Below, piece by piece: positions 1 to 53,512 of a DNA stretch of 64,000 bases (position 1 is its first letter; the number at the start of each line of letters is the position of its first letter). The stretch lies in assembly GCF_013149275.1 (NCBI RefSeq), contig NZ_JABGNA010000008.1:367131-431130 (forward strand). Direction: 5' to 3'. The translations under genes were made by a program, and so were the position numbers. The DNA is from Mucilaginibacter sp. SG564. Lineage in GTDB: Bacteria > Bacteroidota > Bacteroidia > Sphingobacteriales > Sphingobacteriaceae. The notes beneath the pieces were generated by a model that saw only the letters and a list, made by a program, of their open reading frames with translations, had not been told where the DNA came from and did no database searches.

Positions 1-213
1 TAAATCTTTCTTGGTACCGGCAGCGAAATCAGCCTGACCTAAATCTTTCTTGGTACCGGCAGCAAAATCAGCCTGACCCAAATCTTTCTTAGTACCAGCA
101 GCGAAATCAGCCTGACCTAAATCTTTCTTGGTACCGGCAGCGAAATCAGCCTGACCTAAATCTTTCTTGGTACCGGCAGCAAAATCAGCCTGACCCAAAT
201 CTTTCTTAGTACC
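1..213 (-). repeat. 39-bp coding tandem repeat with 117-bp super-period
   Basis: Units of 39 bp start at 1, 40, 79, 118, 157 and 196 (plus-strand coordinates). Units 1, 2 and 3 carry three different sets of third-position variants, and units 4, 5 and the start of 6 repeat the same order. A block of three units was therefore duplicated as a whole. All differences between units are synonymous in the minus-strand frame. Confidence 0.9.
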
Positions 214-327
214 TGTAGCAGTGTTCGTTTTTTTATCGCCATCCGGTGTAGAGGCATTTGAAATGTGAGCTACTGAAGTTAAAAAAAGGCTTAGCGCTAA
301 AGCAGCTGCGGTCATTGATTTTTTCAT
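1..327 (-). CDS. Exported tandem-repeat protein, multi-copy GTKKDLGQADFAA (partial, runs off left edge)
   Basis: The frame is open from an ATG at 327 to base 1 (109 codons, no stop). Residues 1-25 form a Sec signal peptide: MKKS, then an Ala/Leu-rich core, with likely cleavage near SNA-S. After a short polar linker (about residues 26-38), residues 39-109 are five complete copies and a partial sixth of the 13-residue unit GTKKDLGQADFAA. Every copy is identical at protein level although the DNA units differ at several third positions, so the peptide sequence is under selection. No family is recognised. The core K-K-D-L-G-Q-A-D matches the C-terminal ends of the two small genes at 463-606 and 681-824, which lie upstream on the same strand. 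Function is unknown; a multi-copy secreted peptide precursor or a periplasmic or cell-wall repeat protein are both possible. Confidence 0.8.
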   Translation of the reverse strand, partial: MKKSMTAAALALSLFLTSVAHISNASTPDGDKKTNTATGTKKDLGQADFAAGTKKDLGQADFAAGTKKDLGQADFAAGTKKDLGQADFAAGTKKDLGQADFAAGTKKDL

Positions 328-462
328 GATTTTTTAAATTTTGAGGGGGGAGAAGTAAATATTTTTTATTTATGAATTGCTTATTAATTTAATACTGAGC
401 GTACGTTTAAGTGCCCACTAGTATTAATAGTTATTTTATTATATATCAGAAATTGGCAGATC

Positions 463-606
463 TCAATCAGCATTGCCCAGATCTCTTTTAAATTTGCTTG
501 CAAATGATTGTACCTCGGTAAAATCGGTATGTTGATGTTCTTTTTTGCAAGATGAAAAGATGCCGGTAAAAACGATGGCAAAGGCTATGATGATCAGTTT
601 TTTCAT
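463..606 (-). CDS. 47-residue exported lipopeptide ending KRDLGNAD
   Basis: ATG at 606, stop TGA at 463-465, 47 codons. The protein starts MKKLIIIAFAIVFTGIFSSC: a hydrophobic signal followed by a type II lipobox-like I-F-S-S-C20, so it is probably a lipoprotein. The mature part is about 28 residues and ends S-K-F-K-R-D-L-G-N-A-D. The last eight residues match the core of the repeat protein at 1-327 and the end of the 47-residue protein at 681-824. Both 47-residue genes also share a leader sequence. No known family is recognised. The matching length, shared leader and conserved tail argue that this is a real gene despite its size. Confidence 0.72.
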   Translation of the reverse strand: MKKLIIIAFAIVFTGIFSSCKKEHQHTDFTEVQSFASKFKRDLGNAD

Positions 607-613
607 GATATAT

Positions 614-637
614 TATTGTTAATGTGCTGTTTGATTA
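614..637 (-). promoter_or_regulatory. Leader motif shared with the paralogous gene at 681-824
   Basis: On the minus strand, TAATCAAACAG is followed after a short gap by TAACAATA, just upstream of the ATG at 606. The same two words in the same order occur at 840-860 before the ATG at 824. This suggests duplication of gene plus leader, or a shared regulatory element. Confidence 0.45.
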
Positions 638-640
638 TTG

Positions 641-663
641 TTGAGGTGTACACAATACCTCAA
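641..663. other. Hairpin between the two small peptide genes
   Basis: Perfect 7-bp arms TTGAGGT and ACCTCAA enclose a GTACAC-containing loop, between the stop at 681 and the start at 606. No clear T-run follows on the minus strand, so it may be an RNA-processing or partial termination site rather than a strong terminator. Confidence 0.4.
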
Positions 664-680
664 AATTTTAAATTGTCAGA

Positions 681-824
681 TTAGTCTGCGGTTCCTAAAT
701 CCCTTTTAAAAGGGGTAATAGTTTTAGTGAAGCTTACTGTCTGAGGCTCTTCAGCTTTTTTTGTTGATGAAGACAAAACTCCTGCACTTGTAATGAATAG
801 TGCTAATAGGATGGTTTTTTTCAT
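681..824 (-). CDS. 47-residue exported peptide ending KRDLGTAD
   Basis: ATG at 824, stop TAA at 681-683, 47 codons, the same length as the gene at 463-606. It begins MKKTILLALFITSAGVLSSS, a Sec signal peptide with a Ser where its paralogue has the lipobox Cys, so it is probably released rather than lipidated. The mature part is short and polar (KKAEEPQ) and ends F-K-R-D-L-G-T-A-D. It is first in a row of three minus-strand genes, all with the K[KR]DLGxAD motif. Unknown family; the function cannot be told from sequence. Confidence 0.72.
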   Translation of the reverse strand: MKKTILLALFITSAGVLSSSTKKAEEPQTVSFTKTITPFKRDLGTAD

Positions 825-839
825 GGCGGTTAATATTTA

Positions 840-860
840 TATTGTTACTCTGTTTGATTA
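840..860 (-). promoter_or_regulatory. Leader motif shared with the gene at 463-606
   Basis: This is the second copy of the TAATCAAACAG...TAACAATA leader, upstream of the ATG at 824. See 614-637. Confidence 0.45.
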
Positions 861-1344
861 ATTATTATTTAATAGTATTTTAACTCCTGTTTAAATACTA
901 AAAGCTTGCAAATTTTTGTGCTCCATTATAAAGTCTTTGAAAAATAAGGGAGCTCTTAATTTGATCGAATTCATCTTGTTTCTTGAAAAAAAATGGTAGT
1001 TTTAATGATTATAACTTTTTATATAAAATAATTTTTTAAATTTTTTTATTCATTTTTAAATGAACAGACAATAAGATAATTATACATATGATGTCTAAAT
1101 ATTTTTATGCTATTAAATTATAGCTTAATGGTATTTTTTTGTTTAATAATTATAATAAAAAAGCAAATAATATTCATTCAACTAATTGTATATCAATTAA
1201 TTAACAATGCAAATATAAATATGTTTTTGGTTTTTGAACAAAAAAAATAAAAATATTTTTCCACACGGTTTTTTTGAGCCGTTATTAGATATATTAACGC
1301 TTATTTCATAACTTTCACGCTAAATTGAACGTAAGAGTGCTTTA
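861..1344. other. AT-rich divergent intergenic region
   Basis: About 480 bp of very AT-rich DNA between the minus-strand peptide cluster and the plus-strand TPR gene. It must hold the promoters of both directions. I could not assign a convincing -33/-7 pair, and no further short gene with a signal peptide was found in it. Confidence 0.5.
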
Positions 1345-2784
1345 ATGAGAAAAACCTATATTCTCCTATTGGTATTTTTTGTATCATTTGCTGTACACGC
1401 AAATGATTTTAATGAAGCGACTGCAACAGATACCAACGCGGTAATAAAATTAAATAAACAGGCTTTTGCCAATCGTTTAACAAGTCCTGAACAAACAATT
1501 ATTGATGCAACGCAGGCTTTAGCAATGGCCAAAAAGCTGAATTATTATAATGGCATTGGCGAGGCATACCGGATTGTCGGCATCGGGAGATCCTATCTTA
1601 ACCAATCTGAAAAGGCCTTTGATAGTTACCTTAATGGGGTTGCCTATTTCATTAAAGCTAATAATTTGGCAGGTGAGGCAAAGATATATAATAATATGGG
1701 TAATTTATTCCGTGATCAGGACTATAACCGCTGCCTGGATTACCTGAATAAATCGCTCGCGATAGCCACTAAAATAAAGGATCAGCACCTGATAGCGGCT
1801 TTAGGCTTAAATTTAGGTAATGTTTATACACGTAAAAATAGTTTTCAGCAAGCATTAAAATACTATGATCAAAGTATGGTTGTTTTTGAAGAACTAAAAG
1901 ATAATGTAAATGTTGCTCAATGTGTGCTTAACAAAGGTTTTGTTTATTACAAACTTAATCAGTATGATATAGCATTGAAACTTCTGCTGGAAGCCCGGGA
2001 CTCGGCCAAACAACAGGATTTGAATGAAACCGTTGCCAGCATTAACCTTACACTTGCTTCATTGTATATGGCTCAAAAAAAATATACGGAAGCCGAACAG
2101 GTTGTAAGGGAGGGTTTGGCTTATGCTACACTCGTTAAAGATCCTAAACTTAATTATGATTACAAGCATACCTCGTACGAATTGGAATATAGCCGGAAAA
2201 ACTATGAACGTGCTATTTTTTATTTGCGGGAGATATACAAAGAAGATAGTGTAACCTTTAAACAAAATACCTCGGTGCAAATAAGGCTCATGGAGGCTAA
2301 GCGCAAACAAGAAGAGCAGGTAAAAGAAAATGAACGTGTAGCCGACAAGCAGGCTTTTGAACGTTCGCGTTTTTGGGCGGTGAGCACAGTGGCCGGTTTA
2401 TTATTGGTTGTTATTGGATTATTGGTAGGTAATGTGAAACGGAAGGCAAAGACCAACGCGCAACTTACCATGCTTAACGAAGAAGTTTTAAGACAAAAAG
2501 ATAACCTCGACAGGATAAATCATCATCTGGAGGAAATCATCGATGAAAGAACAAAAGATCTGCAGATTAAGAACAAGAAGCTTTCTGAACACTCTTCTTA
2601 TCTATCTCACCAGATCAGGGGGCCAATCGCTACGCTGCGCGGTCTGATAAACCTGGAGCGGGAGGGATTGGTTAACCAGGAAGAGTGTATTACCATGATG
2701 GATAAATGCGTTTCGGAAATTGACGAAAAAATAATTGAAATGAGCGACATGCTGCATGGCCCTTCTCATAATAGTAATTCCTGA
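1345..2784 (+). CDS. TPR-repeat membrane protein with a HisKA-like phospho-acceptor end but no ATPase domain
   Basis: 479 residues. Residues 1-19 are a signal peptide; about 40-300 are tandem TPR helices (motifs such as A-I-Y-N-N-M-G-N-L and A-L-G-L-N-L-G-N-V-Y); one membrane helix lies at about 343-364; a coiled coil at about 366-416; then S-H422-Q-I-R-G-P, a good histidine-kinase H-box. The protein stops about 55 residues later, so the usual HATPase_c domain (N, G1, G2 boxes) is absent. DNA after the stop does not encode one on this strand. The topology suggests a periplasmic TPR sensor with a cytoplasmic DHp domain that a separate kinase must phosphorylate. It faces the K[KR]DLGxAD peptide cluster, which makes a sensing link possible but unproved. 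Confidence 0.8.
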   Translation: MRKTYILLLVFFVSFAVHANDFNEATATDTNAVIKLNKQAFANRLTSPEQTIIDATQALAMAKKLNYYNGIGEAYRIVGIGRSYLNQSEKAFDSYLNGVAYFIKANNLAGEAKIYNNMGNLFRDQDYNRCLDYLNKSLAIATKIKDQHLIAALGLNLGNVYTRKNSFQQALKYYDQSMVVFEELKDNVNVAQCVLNKGFVYYKLNQYDIALKLLLEARDSAKQQDLNETVASINLTLASLYMAQKKYTEAEQVVREGLAYATLVKDPKLNYDYKHTSYELEYSRKNYERAIFYLREIYKEDSVTFKQNTSVQIRLMEAKRKQEEQVKENERVADKQAFERSRFWAVSTVAGLLLVVIGLLVGNVKRKAKTNAQLTMLNEEVLRQKDNLDRINHHLEEIIDERTKDLQIKNKKLSEHSSYLSHQIRGPIATLRGLINLEREGLVNQEECITMMDKCVSEIDEKIIEMSDMLHGPSHNSNS

Positions 2785-2806
2785 AACAGTATTTTTTTTA
2801 TGATGC

Positions 2807-3109
2807 TTAACCCAGGTTAAATGCAGCTGGCCATGAAGAATGTATCTGTGCCTCAATAAGCCCAAGATAAATACAATACCTGGATATCATTTGCAGTATA
2901 AGCAATTGCCGGTGTTTATTATAACCCTCAGTTTCAAAGGCAAGTGTTTCATCTCCTGCGGTAACAAAAAATCTCACTTCGCCCTGCCTCGGTTTAAATC
3001 TTGATTGTAAAAGATCGAATACCTTAACTTTAAGTTTGCTTTTGGGGTCGTGGATGGTCCCATCTTTCAAAGCCTGGTTTTTTGAAATAGATATCAGATA
3101 ATTTGACAT
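2807..3109 (-). CDS. Hypothetical protein, about 100 residues
   Basis: Starts at ATG 3109; a GTG two codons upstream at 3115 would add two residues. No signal peptide or membrane segment. The protein is mixed alpha/beta in appearance, with a basic middle (K-S-K-L-K-V-K-V-F) and a strand-like R-F-F-V-T-A-G. It converges on the TPR gene and lies downstream of the Xre regulator on the same strand. No family recognised. It is the only good frame in this stretch, but its reality rests on length alone. Confidence 0.5.
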   Translation of the reverse strand: MSNYLISISKNQALKDGTIHDPKSKLKVKVFDLLQSRFKPRQGEVRFFVTAGDETLAFETEGYNKHRQLLILQMISRYCIYLGLIEAQIHSSWPAAFNLG

Positions 3110-3331
3110 AAACACTTTTTACGATAAAAAATGTTTATGTCACAATTTTTACTCCAATTTTAAATTATAAGGCATATTAAATGAAATTATGTTCATTTAT
3201 ATTCCTTTTTCTTGAAAAATTTACTAAGATTAAATATTGTTAACCAGTATTTAACCAATTTAATGGTAATTTATATCAGAATGTGTTGTGCAAAAGATGT
3301 AACTGTAAGGTTTACAGAACACATTATTAAA

Positions 3332-3700
3332 TTATAGGACTAAAATACTTTTGTTTCGTAATTCTTCGTAAAGTAAAATTACTTTGCGTTGCAGGCTTGC
3401 GATCTCCGATTCCCGGTCTACCAGTTTTTTCTGGGCTATGCTCAGGTTTGATGGAGCAAGGTCAACTTCACCTTCTTCAACACTTAATATTTGTGCAACC
3501 GTTATTTCAAATATATTAGCGATCTGTTCCAGACGCGAAAGATTGATATCAGTTACACCGGTTTCGATCTTGGAAAAAGCCGGGATAGAAATACCTAAAC
3601 GGTTTGCTATATCTTCCTGGCTCCACCCGCGTTGGTGGCGTAAGGTTCTGATGTTTTTTCCAACGGATTTGTTTGTTTTCTTTTTGGTGCTGTCGTTCAT
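3332..3700 (-). CDS. Xre-family helix-turn-helix transcriptional regulator
   Basis: 122 residues. Residues 15-70 are an HTH_3 domain (G-K-N-I-R-T-L-R, then W-S-Q-E-D-I-A-N-R-L-G and F-S-K-I-E-T-G). The C-terminal third is a predicted coiled coil rich in Leu, Glu and Lys, probably for dimerisation. It is a cytoplasmic DNA-binding protein whose targets cannot be read from the sequence; nearby candidates are the divergent neighbours and its own promoter. Confidence 0.88.
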   Translation of the reverse strand: MNDSTKKKTNKSVGKNIRTLRHQRGWSQEDIANRLGISIPAFSKIETGVTDINLSRLEQIANIFEITVAQILSVEEGEVDLAPSNLSIAQKKLVDRESEIASLQRKVILLYEELRNKSILVL

Positions 3701-23119: not shown

Positions 23120-23689
23120 ATGACAGCGCTCACCGATCAATCTGATTACAAAACGGTAAGTTTTTCTCAAACTACCATCACCGAACTGATGATACCTTCC
23201 TACTCCAATTTTGGGGGCAAGATACATGGGGGCATTTTGCTGTCGCTGATGGATAAGGTGGCTTATGTATGTGCCGCTAAACATGCCGGGAATTACTGCG
23301 TAACCGCCTCTATTGATACGGTGGATTTTTTGCAGCCGGTAGAAGTCGGCGAACTGGTATCCCTCATGGCATCGGTTAATTATGTGGGTAAAACTTCCCT
23401 GGTGGTGGGTATCCGCGTGGTATCGGAAAACATCAAGAATAATTCGGTAATGCACACCAATACCAGCTACTTTACCATGGTTGCTAAGGACGAGAACAAC
23501 AAACCTGTAAAGGTACCCGGCCTGATATTGGAAAACCGCGAGCAGGTGAGGCGTTTTATCGAATCGCGCCGGCGCAAGGAGATCAAACAAAGCTATATGC
23601 AGGAAGTAGAACAGATCCAGATGCCCGATAATTACGAACATTGCATCGCCATGCTCATGGGCGAACGCTGCCTGGTAGCAGGGGAATAG
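23120..23689 (+). CDS. Hotdog-fold acyl-CoA thioesterase (YciA-like)
   Basis: 189 residues. The hotdog signature N-F-G-G-K-I-H-G-G-I-L-L-S-L-M-D-K-V-A-Y is at about 34-53, followed by T-A-S-I-D-T-V-D-F and the strand V-G-K-T-S-L-V-V-G-I-R-V. The C-terminal ~40 residues are basic and helical. It is a cytoplasmic hydrolase of acyl-CoA thioesters; the chain length cannot be judged. A lipid-related neighbour (desaturase) follows 565 bp downstream. Confidence 0.9.
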   Translation: MTALTDQSDYKTVSFSQTTITELMIPSYSNFGGKIHGGILLSLMDKVAYVCAAKHAGNYCVTASIDTVDFLQPVEVGELVSLMASVNYVGKTSLVVGIRVVSENIKNNSVMHTNTSYFTMVAKDENNKPVKVPGLILENREQVRRFIESRRRKEIKQSYMQEVEQIQMPDNYEHCIAMLMGERCLVAGE

Positions 23690-23701
23690 GGTTTTTAAAG
23701 T

Positions 23702-23834
23702 CAAAAGTCAAAAGTCAAAAGTCAAAAGTCAAAAGGCAAAAGTCAAAAGTCAAAAGGCAAAAGTCAAAAGGCAAAAGGCAAAAGGCAAAAGGCAAAAGGC
23801 AAAAGGCAAAAGGCAAAAGGCAAAAGGCAAAAGG
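23702..23834 (+). repeat. 7-bp tandem repeat, 19 units of CAAAAGT/CAAAAGG
   Basis: Nineteen exact-length units. The left end is mostly CAAAAGT, the right ten units are all CAAAAGG, and the two types alternate between. It directly follows the thioesterase stop codon. The remainder to 24254 holds no gene apart from the palindrome at 24180. Confidence 0.95.
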
Positions 23835-31890: not shown

Positions 31891-32018
31891 TTGAATTAGC
31901 GATTTAGTGAATTAGTGATTGGAAAAAGTAAATTTTATCGATCACTAATTTTATATTTAAGCTCACTAATTCAATATTTAAATTCACTAACTCACTAATT
32001 CACTAAATCAATAATTAA
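31891..32018. repeat. Low-complexity intergenic repeat, TCACTAAT words
   Basis: GTGAATTAGTGATT-type words on the left face many CACTAATTCACTAA words on the right, so the RNA can fold back on itself. Placed inside the operon; similar DNA at 19405-19440, 45390-45478 and 53455-53490. Confidence 0.7.
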
Positions 32019-45357: not shown

Positions 45358-45478
45358 AGTCAAAAGTAAAAAGTCAAAAAAATAAACAAATCACTAATTC
45401 ACTAAATCACTAATTCACTAAATAATTACCTAAGCCTTATCACTAATTCACTAAATCAATAATTCACTAATTAAAAAA
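45358..45478. repeat. Low-complexity intergenic DNA, AAAAGTC and TCACTAAT words
   Basis: GTCAAAAGTAAAAAGTCAAA followed by repeated CACTAATTCACTAAAT. Same word families as 23702-23834 and 31891-32018. Confidence 0.7.
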
Positions 45479-51781: not shown

Positions 51782-53452
51782 ATGCAAAGGCGACACTTTT
51801 TAAAACTTTCTTCAGCGGCCACCGCGGCTGTACTCTTTAGCAGGATCACGCATGCTACATCAACCCAAACCACTGCCATCAACGCTCCCGACGAGGTGTG
51901 GGCGCAATCTGGCGAGGAATGGTTTCAGTTGAAAGGCAGCAATGGCTCATCGTTTACTTATAAAGATATCAGCGTTAGTTTTAAAACTACGGGTAATGCC
52001 AGAGGTGTGTTTGTAAACTCGCCAACACAGCAACTCAACGCGGTTCGGCTGAAATGGAAGCATCACCTGAGTCCCAATTCCAAATTCCTGGGCGACCATT
52101 GGGAACGCTCTTATGGAGACCTGCAATGGAAAACTAATCCGGATAAGGTTAAAAATCCATGGTATGTAATTATCCATGATGATAAACAAACGGCCTGTTT
52201 CGGCGTAAAAACCGGTTGCAAAGCTATTTGCTGGTGGGGATTGACCAACGATAGCCTGGAACTTACTTTAGATACGCACTCCGGCGGTAACGGGGTATTA
52301 TTAGGTTCGCGCCAGTTGCATGCTGCCGATATTATTACTACCGACGGTCGTCCTGGTGAGAACGCTTTTTATACCACCCGCAGGTTTTGCGGTATGATGT
52401 GCCCCAATCCGCGCTTACCCAAGCAGCCGGCTTATGGTATTAACGACTGGTATTTCGCCTACGGCAATAACTCGTTTGATCTGATCAAGAAAACAACGGC
52501 CATGATGGCCGACCTGGTGACCGATACCCATAACCGCCCGTTTTCGGTAGTGGACGCGGGCTGGGCAACCTATTCGCCCTTATTGCCGGGCGATGGCGGC
52601 TGGAACGATGATTTCTCGAAGCCTAACGATAAGTTTAAAGATATGCACCTGCTGGCCAACGAGATTAAGCAGTTGGGCATGCGCCCCGGCTTGTGGATGC
52701 GCCCGCTTTGTGCCCGTCATGATGAAAAAGCCAGTTTGCTGGCACCTAAAATACCAGGCCGCGACGATCCGAAAAACCCGGTACTTGATCCTACCATCCC
52801 CGAAAATATAGCTCGCATTAAGCATAATTTTGATGTGTACAAGCAATGGGGCTATGATATGGTTAAGCATGATTTCAGCACCTACGATATTACCGGCAGA
52901 TGGGGTGCCGGTATGAAGGACAGCATCACCGCGCCTGGCTGGAATTTTAACGACCGCAGCCGAACCACCGCCGAAATCATTAACGACCTTTACGCCGCCA
53001 TACGCCAGGCTGCCGGCGATGGCATCTACATTATAGGCTGCAATACCATGAGCCATCTATCCGCAAGGGTATTTGAAATGTGCCGCATTGGCGATGATAC
53101 CAGCGGCCATGAATGGGAACGTACCCGTAAAATGGGGGTGAATACATTGGCTTTCCGTTTGCCGCAACATGATAAATTTTACGCTGTAGATGGCGATTGT
53201 GTGGGGCTTACCAAAGATATTTCCTGGGAACGCAACAAGCAATGGCTGGAGCTGCTGGCCGGAAGCGGTGCGCCGCTCTTTATATCGGCCCAACCCGAAG
53301 CCCTCGGCACGGAGCAAAAAGCGGCCATCAAACAAGCCTTTGCCCAGGCCGCCAAACCCCAACCCATCGGCGAACCCCTGGACTGGATGACCAATACGCA
53401 ACCCCAAAAATGGAAACTAAACGGTAAAACGGTGGAGTTTGACTGGAAGTAA
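51782..53452 (+). CDS. Tat-exported alpha-galactosidase-like glycoside hydrolase (GH-D clan, GH36/GH27-like)
   Basis: 556 residues. Twin arginine Q-R3-R4-H-F-L-K. N-terminal beta domain, then a TIM barrel with V-V-D-A-G-W, L-W-M-R-P-L, probable nucleophile D364 (M-V-K-H-D-F) and acid/base candidate D438/D439 (R-I-G-D-D-T-S-G-H-E-W). Releases terminal galactose or a similar sugar in the periplasm. With the GH110-like enzyme at 9039 it gives two predicted alpha-galactosidases. The exact family is uncertain. Confidence 0.82.
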   Translation: MQRRHFLKLSSAATAAVLFSRITHATSTQTTAINAPDEVWAQSGEEWFQLKGSNGSSFTYKDISVSFKTTGNARGVFVNSPTQQLNAVRLKWKHHLSPNSKFLGDHWERSYGDLQWKTNPDKVKNPWYVIIHDDKQTACFGVKTGCKAICWWGLTNDSLELTLDTHSGGNGVLLGSRQLHAADIITTDGRPGENAFYTTRRFCGMMCPNPRLPKQPAYGINDWYFAYGNNSFDLIKKTTAMMADLVTDTHNRPFSVVDAGWATYSPLLPGDGGWNDDFSKPNDKFKDMHLLANEIKQLGMRPGLWMRPLCARHDEKASLLAPKIPGRDDPKNPVLDPTIPENIARIKHNFDVYKQWGYDMVKHDFSTYDITGRWGAGMKDSITAPGWNFNDRSRTTAEIINDLYAAIRQAAGDGIYIIGCNTMSHLSARVFEMCRIGDDTSGHEWERTRKMGVNTLAFRLPQHDKFYAVDGDCVGLTKDISWERNKQWLELLAGSGAPLFISAQPEALGTEQKAAIKQAFAQAAKPQPIGEPLDWMTNTQPQKWKLNGKTVEFDWK

Positions 53453-53512
53453 TTTAATTATTGAATTATTGAGTTAGTGAATTAGTGATTGAAATTATTT
53501 AGGTCTTCCTCC

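Follow-up and report, generated by a model that had tools for sequence, protein, structure and literature searches.

Small exported peptides and the membrane protein encoded beside them probably form a two-partner signalling module in Mucilaginibacter sp. SG564, with the neighbouring protein, here named F0, as the peptide receptor; we give this reading roughly two chances in three. Its starting point is the left end of the window, the whole stretch of 64,000 nucleotides that was analysed. A ligand with its receptor is the simplest account of an array predicted to be disordered, near-constant copies, a peptide-groove fold encoded nearby and cores that are specific to the species. Action of the peptides between cells is less certain than the pairing itself. 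An earlier note, made from the letters of the window, had proposed among other things a multi-copy precursor processed like a pheromone, and this is still the best reading of the peptide genes, since the repeats differ almost entirely by synonymous changes and homologues were found. The family and the pheromone-like precursor it recognized are thus retained, but it missed the adjacent TPR-DHp protein (1345-2784).

A family of small exported peptides

Three minus-strand genes at the left edge of the window (1-824) encode a signal peptide followed by the motif K[KR]DLGxAD. That they form an unrecognised family of small exported peptides, as the earlier note had it, agrees with the open reading frames, and the family is larger than was noted, with homologues throughout the genus and in further genera of the Sphingobacteriaceae. 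The first gene (1-327, minus strand) is a repeat-peptide gene of which the window holds the 5' part, a frame of 109 amino acids open at the edge, where the signal peptide is followed by GTKKDLGQADFAA units, five whole ones and part of a sixth. Tandem Repeats Finder places the array at 1-213 (minus strand), with a 39-bp period and 5.5 units, each unit standing for 13 residues. The array is interrupted by a 97-N assembly gap left of the window (L011:7035-7131). When the contig is followed leftwards past that gap, as had been proposed, the end of the gene is reached: about ten further in-frame units, ending in QADFTA and a stop codon, are added to the five or more copies first counted, the stop lying about 510 bases outside the window edge with the gap taken at the length written in the assembly. 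Contigs likewise end (L046, L049) or carry N runs (L011) inside repeat arrays, so that annotation may cut peptide genes short or overlook them.

The copies bear the mark of selection on the protein. Sliced by period, with no use of the motif, the window array shows 7 synonymous codon differences and no non-synonymous one over 71 codons, and the units beyond the gap show 27 and 1, the stop codon excepted, where random change would be expected to give a synonymous share of 0.22. The repeat gene of the window is under purifying selection (34 synonymous versus 1 non-synonymous differences). The statement that all repeat differences are synonymous therefore holds in the window (7 of 7) but not past the gap. 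A lack of homologues and changes that are not synonymous had been named as what would speak against the family; both were looked for, homologues turned up and the differences are nearly all silent. Other arrays gave 1686 synonymous versus 57 non-synonymous differences and, in a second count over 15 arrays, 617 versus 53, figures biased by the selection of similar copies, whereas those of the window rest on the period only.

The two other genes encode proteins of equal length, 47 residues, as had been stated, with the ends that had been read. One (463-606, minus strand) is of the lipoprotein type (FSSC-KKE) and ends in KRDLGNAD, the codons of its core DLGNAD lying at 466-483; the other (681-824, minus strand) lacks the lipobox cysteine and ends in KRDLGTAD, with core codons for DLGTAD at 684-701. 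They are related and non-identical (38% identity), the lipobox-like FSSC of one standing where the other has SSS. Three close core variants, DLGQAD, DLGNAD and DLGTAD, thus coexist in the window. The intergenic region that separates the divergent peptide genes and F0 extends from 825 to 1344; Rfam at its gathering threshold reports nothing across 1-3500, and a promoter scan, with 14 sites for 7.6 expected, is uninformative.

Repeats of other kinds occur further along the window. About 20 copies of the heptanucleotide AAAGGCA (96% match), a repeat of a type that can vary in length, lie at 23697-23834, just past an open reading frame of 189 residues (23120-23689), and arrays of 8- or 16-bp units of the type TCACTAAT are found at 31892-32016, 45388-45472 and 53452-53488.

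The DNA pattern for K-x-D-L-G-x-A-D matches 35 of 149 genomes of the genus, many with 10 to 30 clustered matches, while the reversed control pattern gives a single match in each of four. Among 31 places fetched around motif matches, 27 have peptide genes and four (L053, L066, L069, L070) do not; some single matches are chance. In the 27 loci there are tandem genes for a signal peptide with a C-terminal core, or array genes, or both kinds; repeat numbers vary and reach 29 tandem copies (L060). As read from these sequences, the rule of the family is a core some six residues long with Asp as its last residue, placed at the C-terminus or repeated. The motif of the earlier note is indeed present in genomes of the genus but is one dialect only. 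Mucilaginibacter cores include DLGQAD, DLGSAD, DLGNAD, DLGTAD, DVGTAD, DIGTAD, NLATAD and DVGSGD, with further dialects such as NVGTAD, TLATAD, DVSSAD and NTGSSD, and other genera use NLGTWD, DMGGWD or DLGSYD. In any one species the paralogues have identical or similar cores; between species the cores differ. In many arrays and some short members residues follow the core (ADFAA, ADGK, GDGGVDRPPKKP), so that trimming would be needed to leave a free C-terminal Asp. One array, folded alone from a single sequence, is predicted to be disordered (pLDDT 42), as expected of a precursor.

No family in Pfam, NCBIfam or PADLOC accounts for the peptides scanned. Matches below cut-off were to DM_Arn (0.0014), Phr_nterm (0.011), a PG1828 lipoprotein family (3.8e-5) and a chryseobasin-related one (0.022), the last three covering the signal peptide and adjoining residues only. 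In the open-access literature without preprints, DLGQAD, KKDLG and KRDLG return unrelated sequence matches only, and the matches listed for Bacteroidota peptide pheromones or periplasmic TPR sensors contain no such system; on the basis of these searches we call the proposed system apparently undescribed.

F0, the constant neighbour

F0 (1345-2784, plus strand) is a membrane TPR protein of 479 residues with a DHp lacking its catalytic domain, proposed as the peptide receptor from its adjacency, its Pfam domains and its model. Residues 1-19 (1345-1401), judged by eye, look like a signal peptide; a TPR superhelix spans residues 45-315 or so (1477-2289; Pfam, AlphaFold2, VIA-align and Foldseek); a probable membrane helix, also recognized by eye, lies at about residues 344-362 (2374-2430) and is followed by a basic stretch. 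The TPR part is thus presumably periplasmic. Pfam gives TPR_12 at 4.5e-19 and HisKA over residues 414-461 at 21.9 bits, below the cut-off of 26.9; the DHp helix pair (2557-2754) carries a putative phospho-acceptor, His422 (2608-2610, in SHQIRGPIA), invariant in 99 F0 sequences. Pfam detects no HATPase, and the protein ends at residue 479. A generic TPR model of PADLOC also matches (6e-10).

The protein is found in 137 of 149 genomes of the genus (116 of the 117 good ones), with one match each in all but two of the 137, and at the family level in 121 of 301 genomes and 11 of 22 sampled genera. Six of 345 genomes in a phylum-wide sample have it; just one of the six falls outside the family (G557, 4e-57), and there no peptide lies within 1.5 kb. 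It was not found in the plasmid and phage collections searched, and the closest named F0 among the matches listed is that of M. aquaedulcis (76% identical). Two genomes have motif matches and no F0: G128, 86% complete, with 12 matches and no F0 above threshold, and G137, with one match. Three of the 121 family genomes (G223, G233, G265) match over the TPR part only, in open frames of about 610 residues that are probably full kinases and not F0. A full-length TPR histidine kinase of 635 residues (L047:16858-18765), about 4 kb from F0 and possibly related to it, fell into the F0 cluster as an extra member.

When neighbouring open reading frames were clustered, F0 was the sole family present in all 27 loci chosen by motif, always divergent from the peptides. 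These loci contain peptides by construction, four of the 31 fetched places having been dropped first for want of them. A further 100 loci were chosen by F0 alone, 80 from the genus and 20 from other genera, with the upstream 3 kb scanned. (Upstream DNA was read for 107 of the 137 genus genomes with F0 and, outside the genus, for 20 of 48.) Among 425 short exported upstream frames, 308 end in Asp; one or more of these frames is present at 69 loci and none at 31, and in 79 an upstream 5-mer is common to exported frames or repeated three times. Controls for an Asp-ending short frame gave 0 of 100 on the other strand, and 3 of 112 and 0 of 112 further upstream. Over all 127 F0 loci, 403 of 535 short exported frames and 106 of 127 regions are positive, compared with 4 of 298 frames and 9 of 571 regions in control DNA; the 535 frames are those of 35-130 residues upstream of F0 with a signal peptide by a hydropathy rule rather than SignalP, and array members can exceed 100 residues. 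A looser test, accepting [AGWFYM]D in any exported frame, found 95 of the 100 F0-chosen loci but up to 65 of 112 control regions, and is not relied on for that reason. The first signal-peptide frame lies at a median of 377 bp from the start of F0 (123 loci), and at 520 bp in the window. As for the 20 loci of other genera, two have less than 600 bp upstream, and 17 of the other 18 have an Asp-ending exported frame (-WD, -FD, -YD, -MD, -GD); L221 has a similar lipoprotein ending in EE. At L181 F0 is present with no recognisable peptide in 6 kb upstream.

It might be argued that the whole observation is an accident of low-complexity DNA: the copy number of tandem repeats grows readily, and an assembly gap adjoins the start of the window. 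The controls refute this: the reversed pattern, the control regions, the synonymous share and the loci chosen by F0 alone all go against it.

Other genes keep company with the pair. Four neighbour families occur in at least 26 of the 27 loci, F0, F1, an XRE gene and PcrA; an M20 peptidase is present in 19, a DUF4290 gene and an enolase-superfamily gene in 16, an EPSP-synthase-family gene in 11, and others in nine at most. In the window a Cro/C1-type HTH gene lies at 3332-3700 and a gene of 102 residues at 2807-3115, present at 100 and 96, respectively, of 107 loci of the genus. The XRE gene and F1 were considered as parts of the system and set aside, neither being found beside F0 in any of the 20 loci of other genera. 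PcrA and the M20 dipeptidase do flank F0 and the peptides there (19 and 18 of 20), and they are also present in all ten F0-less genomes of the family that were tested; we treat them as synteny. The adjacency of F0 and the peptides is thus in part old synteny, the PcrA and M20 flanks being conserved across the family. At L047, F0 and the peptides stay together though PcrA, the XRE gene and F1 are missing.

Such flanks lend some colour to the idea of a structural or adhesive surface protein (matrix, anchor or metal-binding) that has F0 nearby through synteny only, and long arrays with variable repeat number would suit it. We think this improbable. Many genes carry a single C-terminal core, the one array modelled is disordered (a single sequence, hence weak evidence), and four of the ten F0-less genomes keep PcrA and M20 close, within about 2.3 kb; the other six, where PcrA and M20 lie well apart or on separate contigs, carry no information. 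From the coordinates, 163 bp separate them in G167, with neither partner between. An OmpA-like-looking gene, judged by eye, intervenes in G152 and G173, and other genes in G159, where 1.5 of the 2.2 kb were read; L308 and L310 were read on the side away from PcrA. Joint gain or loss of F0 and the peptides fits these four genomes. An anchoring role for the motif, also envisaged in the earlier note, is unlikely for related reasons: the array is predicted, from a single sequence, to be disordered, and the motif often stands at a free C-terminus.

Bacteriocins and RiPPs, too, have precursors that are short and exported, cores in several copies and sequences peculiar to a clade. The peptides share all three features, and might be toxins, bacteriocins or modified natural products for which F0 would be the sensor or the immunity protein. 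This too seems improbable, if very slightly less so than a surface protein. Pfam searches with representatives of the recurrent neighbours of the 27 long loci found no known RiPP-modifying enzyme, exporter or immunity gene, nearly all cores lack cysteine, and the core is nearly constant within the arrays tested. Nor is a response regulator a constant neighbour in these loci. A lone receiver domain lies past PcrA in nine of the 27 (L044:15489-15866 and eight equivalents; Pfam 1.3e-22) and is missing from the window; it is a possible, if inconstant, output or partner of the F0 DHp.

Groove, core and a proposed mechanism

The AlphaFold2 model of F0, built with 99 aligned sequences, has a mean pLDDT of 85, most TPR blocks being above 90. 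VIA-align places its TPR part with APPBP2 (Z 26.2) and with receptors that take a peptide into the groove, LGN (25.6), phi3T Rap with its pheromone (24.4), RapF with an inhibitory peptide (24.3) and NprR with NprX (23.7); Foldseek has LGN on top and RapJ among its matches. To be sure, having a TPR fold in common indicates no function by itself. Arg76 (codon 1570-1572), at position 5 of a TPR helix A, is present in 127 of 127 F0 sequences, Asn117 in 124 and Asn156 in 125, and three of the repeats have Asn at their position 6 (in 124, 125 and 116 of the 127). Groove positions are presumed from the usual TPR numbering convention, not taken from model coordinates.

Core and receptor vary together. 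Across 93 loci of the genus, core distance correlates with the distance of the TPR outside the groove given the DHp (r 0.37, p 0.002), and with groove distance given the DHp (0.38) or given the rest of the TPR (0.205, p 0.002); the DHp given the TPR gives 0.036 (p 0.28). Over all 110 loci, however, the DHp keeps a partial r of 0.31 with the core, as the TPR does (0.30), so that shared ancestry is not removed (17 of the 127 loci were dropped from these Mantel tests, having fewer than two assignable core copies). Raw mutual information with the core shows no excess at groove sites, whereas the entropy-corrected measure is higher there (p 4.5e-5), and the top co-varying pair joins core position 5 to site 152 (APC z 6.4 in the genus). 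Where the penultimate residue is bulky (W, F, Y or M), 15 of 16 loci have Gly at site 152, versus 3 of 94 where it is A or G; where core position 2 is V or I, 34 of 36 have Tyr at site 162, versus 1 of 54 where it is L; and where the first core residue is acidic, 3 of 73 have an acidic residue at site 239, versus 23 of 37 where it is not. These pairings appear chemically sensible. Independent pairs, on a tree built without groove sites, go in the same direction almost throughout; with few pairs, no median falls below 0.05, and the sites and groupings were picked after seeing the data.

Many of the peptides may be lipoproteins. A lipobox cysteine is present in 206 of 511 family-like short frames, followed by Lys at +3 in 194 and by an acidic residue at +4 in 161. 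This abundance suits another possibility, that F0 is an envelope sentinel, reading the C-termini of lipopeptides in the periplasm when sorting, surface export or proteolysis has failed; NlpE with CpxA is a known case of this type. A receptor facing the periplasm would be expected, and a gene as nearly universal in the genus as F0, mostly with a single match, fits. Of the competing explanations it is the least improbable, and still unlikely: it leaves unexplained why cores are specific to the species, why arrays reach 29 copies, why some paralogues are not lipidated, and why core and groove co-vary. The residues after the cysteine resemble the surface-export signal of Bacteroidota lipoproteins, C-X-K-(D/E)2 (PMC5080379), so that the lipoprotein forms may be displayed at the cell surface; the full K(D/E)2 is present in 41 of 56 lipobox peptides outside the genus and in 2 of 150 within it.

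In the peptide-receptor reading, which we prefer, the small genes would make Sec-exported precursors, lipidated or soluble, in which a core of six residues or so, with Asp last, stands at the C-terminus or in tandem. The core, preceded in the window by Lys-Lys or Lys-Arg, would be cut out by proteases; it would reach the periplasm and lie extended within the TPR groove, the terminal Asp being gripped by invariant residues, with Arg76 and the Asn ladder 117/156/196 as candidates. Binding would shift the F0 helix through the membrane and thereby change the phosphotransfer or phosphatase state of the kinase-less DHp, which would act toward some response regulator. We infer cleavage, binding and its orientation, as well as the direction of the signal, its output and any action between cells; the family, its copies, their synonymous variation, the adjacency, the predicted fold and the co-variation are read from sequence. 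Each species would use its own cores, in the manner of pherotypes. Core size counts against signalling, since the usual porin limit is about 600 Da and some cores come near it or exceed it (DLGSAD and DVGTAD 577 Da, DLGQAD 618, NLGTWD 705).

The fuller version is put forward tentatively, at somewhat less than even odds: an apparently undescribed pheromone system of the Sphingobacteriaceae, in which precursors anchored as lipoproteins or holding many copies release peptides with a C-terminal Asp, read outside the cytoplasm by a protein made of TPRs, membrane helix and kinase-less DHp, each species having its own cores and matching changes in the groove (152/162/239). If true, Mucilaginibacter and related environmental genera would possess a private language that could be tested with synthetic hexapeptides, and the loci would offer many natural ligand-receptor pairs for the study of how the specificity of a TPR groove changes.

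Relation to known systems

The carboxylate-clamp TPRs of HOP and CHIP read EEVD-COOH through a groove with conserved basic and Asn residues. Their ligand ends in Asp, as the cores do, in a different protein family, and the clamp residues match in part only, through an Arg at position 5 and an Asn at position 6. One of the weaker matches of F0 by sequence is HOP TPR2A (1.2e-8). ComX-ComP and the agr type combine an exported peptide with a membrane sensor and display a diversity of pherotypes. By contrast, the loci described here have no modifying enzyme, no kinase ATPase domain and no constant response regulator, and the ligand domain is made of TPRs.

Periplasmic sensors offer other likenesses. 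VbrK/VxrA of Vibrio has a TPR-like sensor domain in the periplasm on a membrane sensor, but there a TPR-like and a PAS-like domain belong to full kinases with a proposed response to beta-lactams, and the passages on them in PMC8534201 describe no peptide genes. The best NCBIfam match of F0 is FimS, at 60.6 bits for a cut-off of 600. FimS of Porphyromonas gingivalis shares the periplasmic TPR sensor, the membrane helix and the coil; it has a kinase domain, whereas F0 stops after the DHp. Peptide genes adjoin F0. Because the catalytic domain is missing, we do not file F0 as a FimS-type kinase. The signal of FimS is unknown, its authors suggesting a polypeptide ligand (PMC11053733); the present system, if true, suggests a type of ligand for FimS and other orphan TPR sensors in the periplasm of this phylum.

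Most known cases of quorum sensing by peptides come from Bacillota. According to the introduction of PMC10075063, most knowledge of quorum sensing comes from three phyla, Bacteroidota not included. The RRNPP systems are recognized in that paper by a small propeptide exported through Sec, in which the signal mostly occupies the final residues and is sometimes duplicated, and by a neighbouring gene for a TPR receptor of 250-500 residues, at a default spacing of -60 to 400 bp; RRNPP_Detector was applied there to complete Firmicutes genomes and mobile elements, so that it would have missed the peptide-F0 family (PMC10075063). The resemblance to RRNPP/RRNPPA (Rap-Phr, NprR-NprX, PlcR-PapR) lies in size and fold: propeptides there have 10-100 residues and the short genes here 47, and F0, with its 479 residues and its TPRs, has the same superhelix (Z about 24). 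The differences lie in topology, for the receptors of RRNPP work inside the cell on peptides that have been taken up again, whereas F0 appears, by eye, to have a signal peptide and a membrane helix, together with a DHp, and the precursors are often lipoproteins. A cytoplasmic receptor being a defining feature of RRNPP, the F0 system is not filed there; it is best read as working like RRNPP without being a member. If true, it would be a third mode of reading peptides, beside the cytoplasmic RRNPP receptors and the kinases of the ComP/AgrC type.
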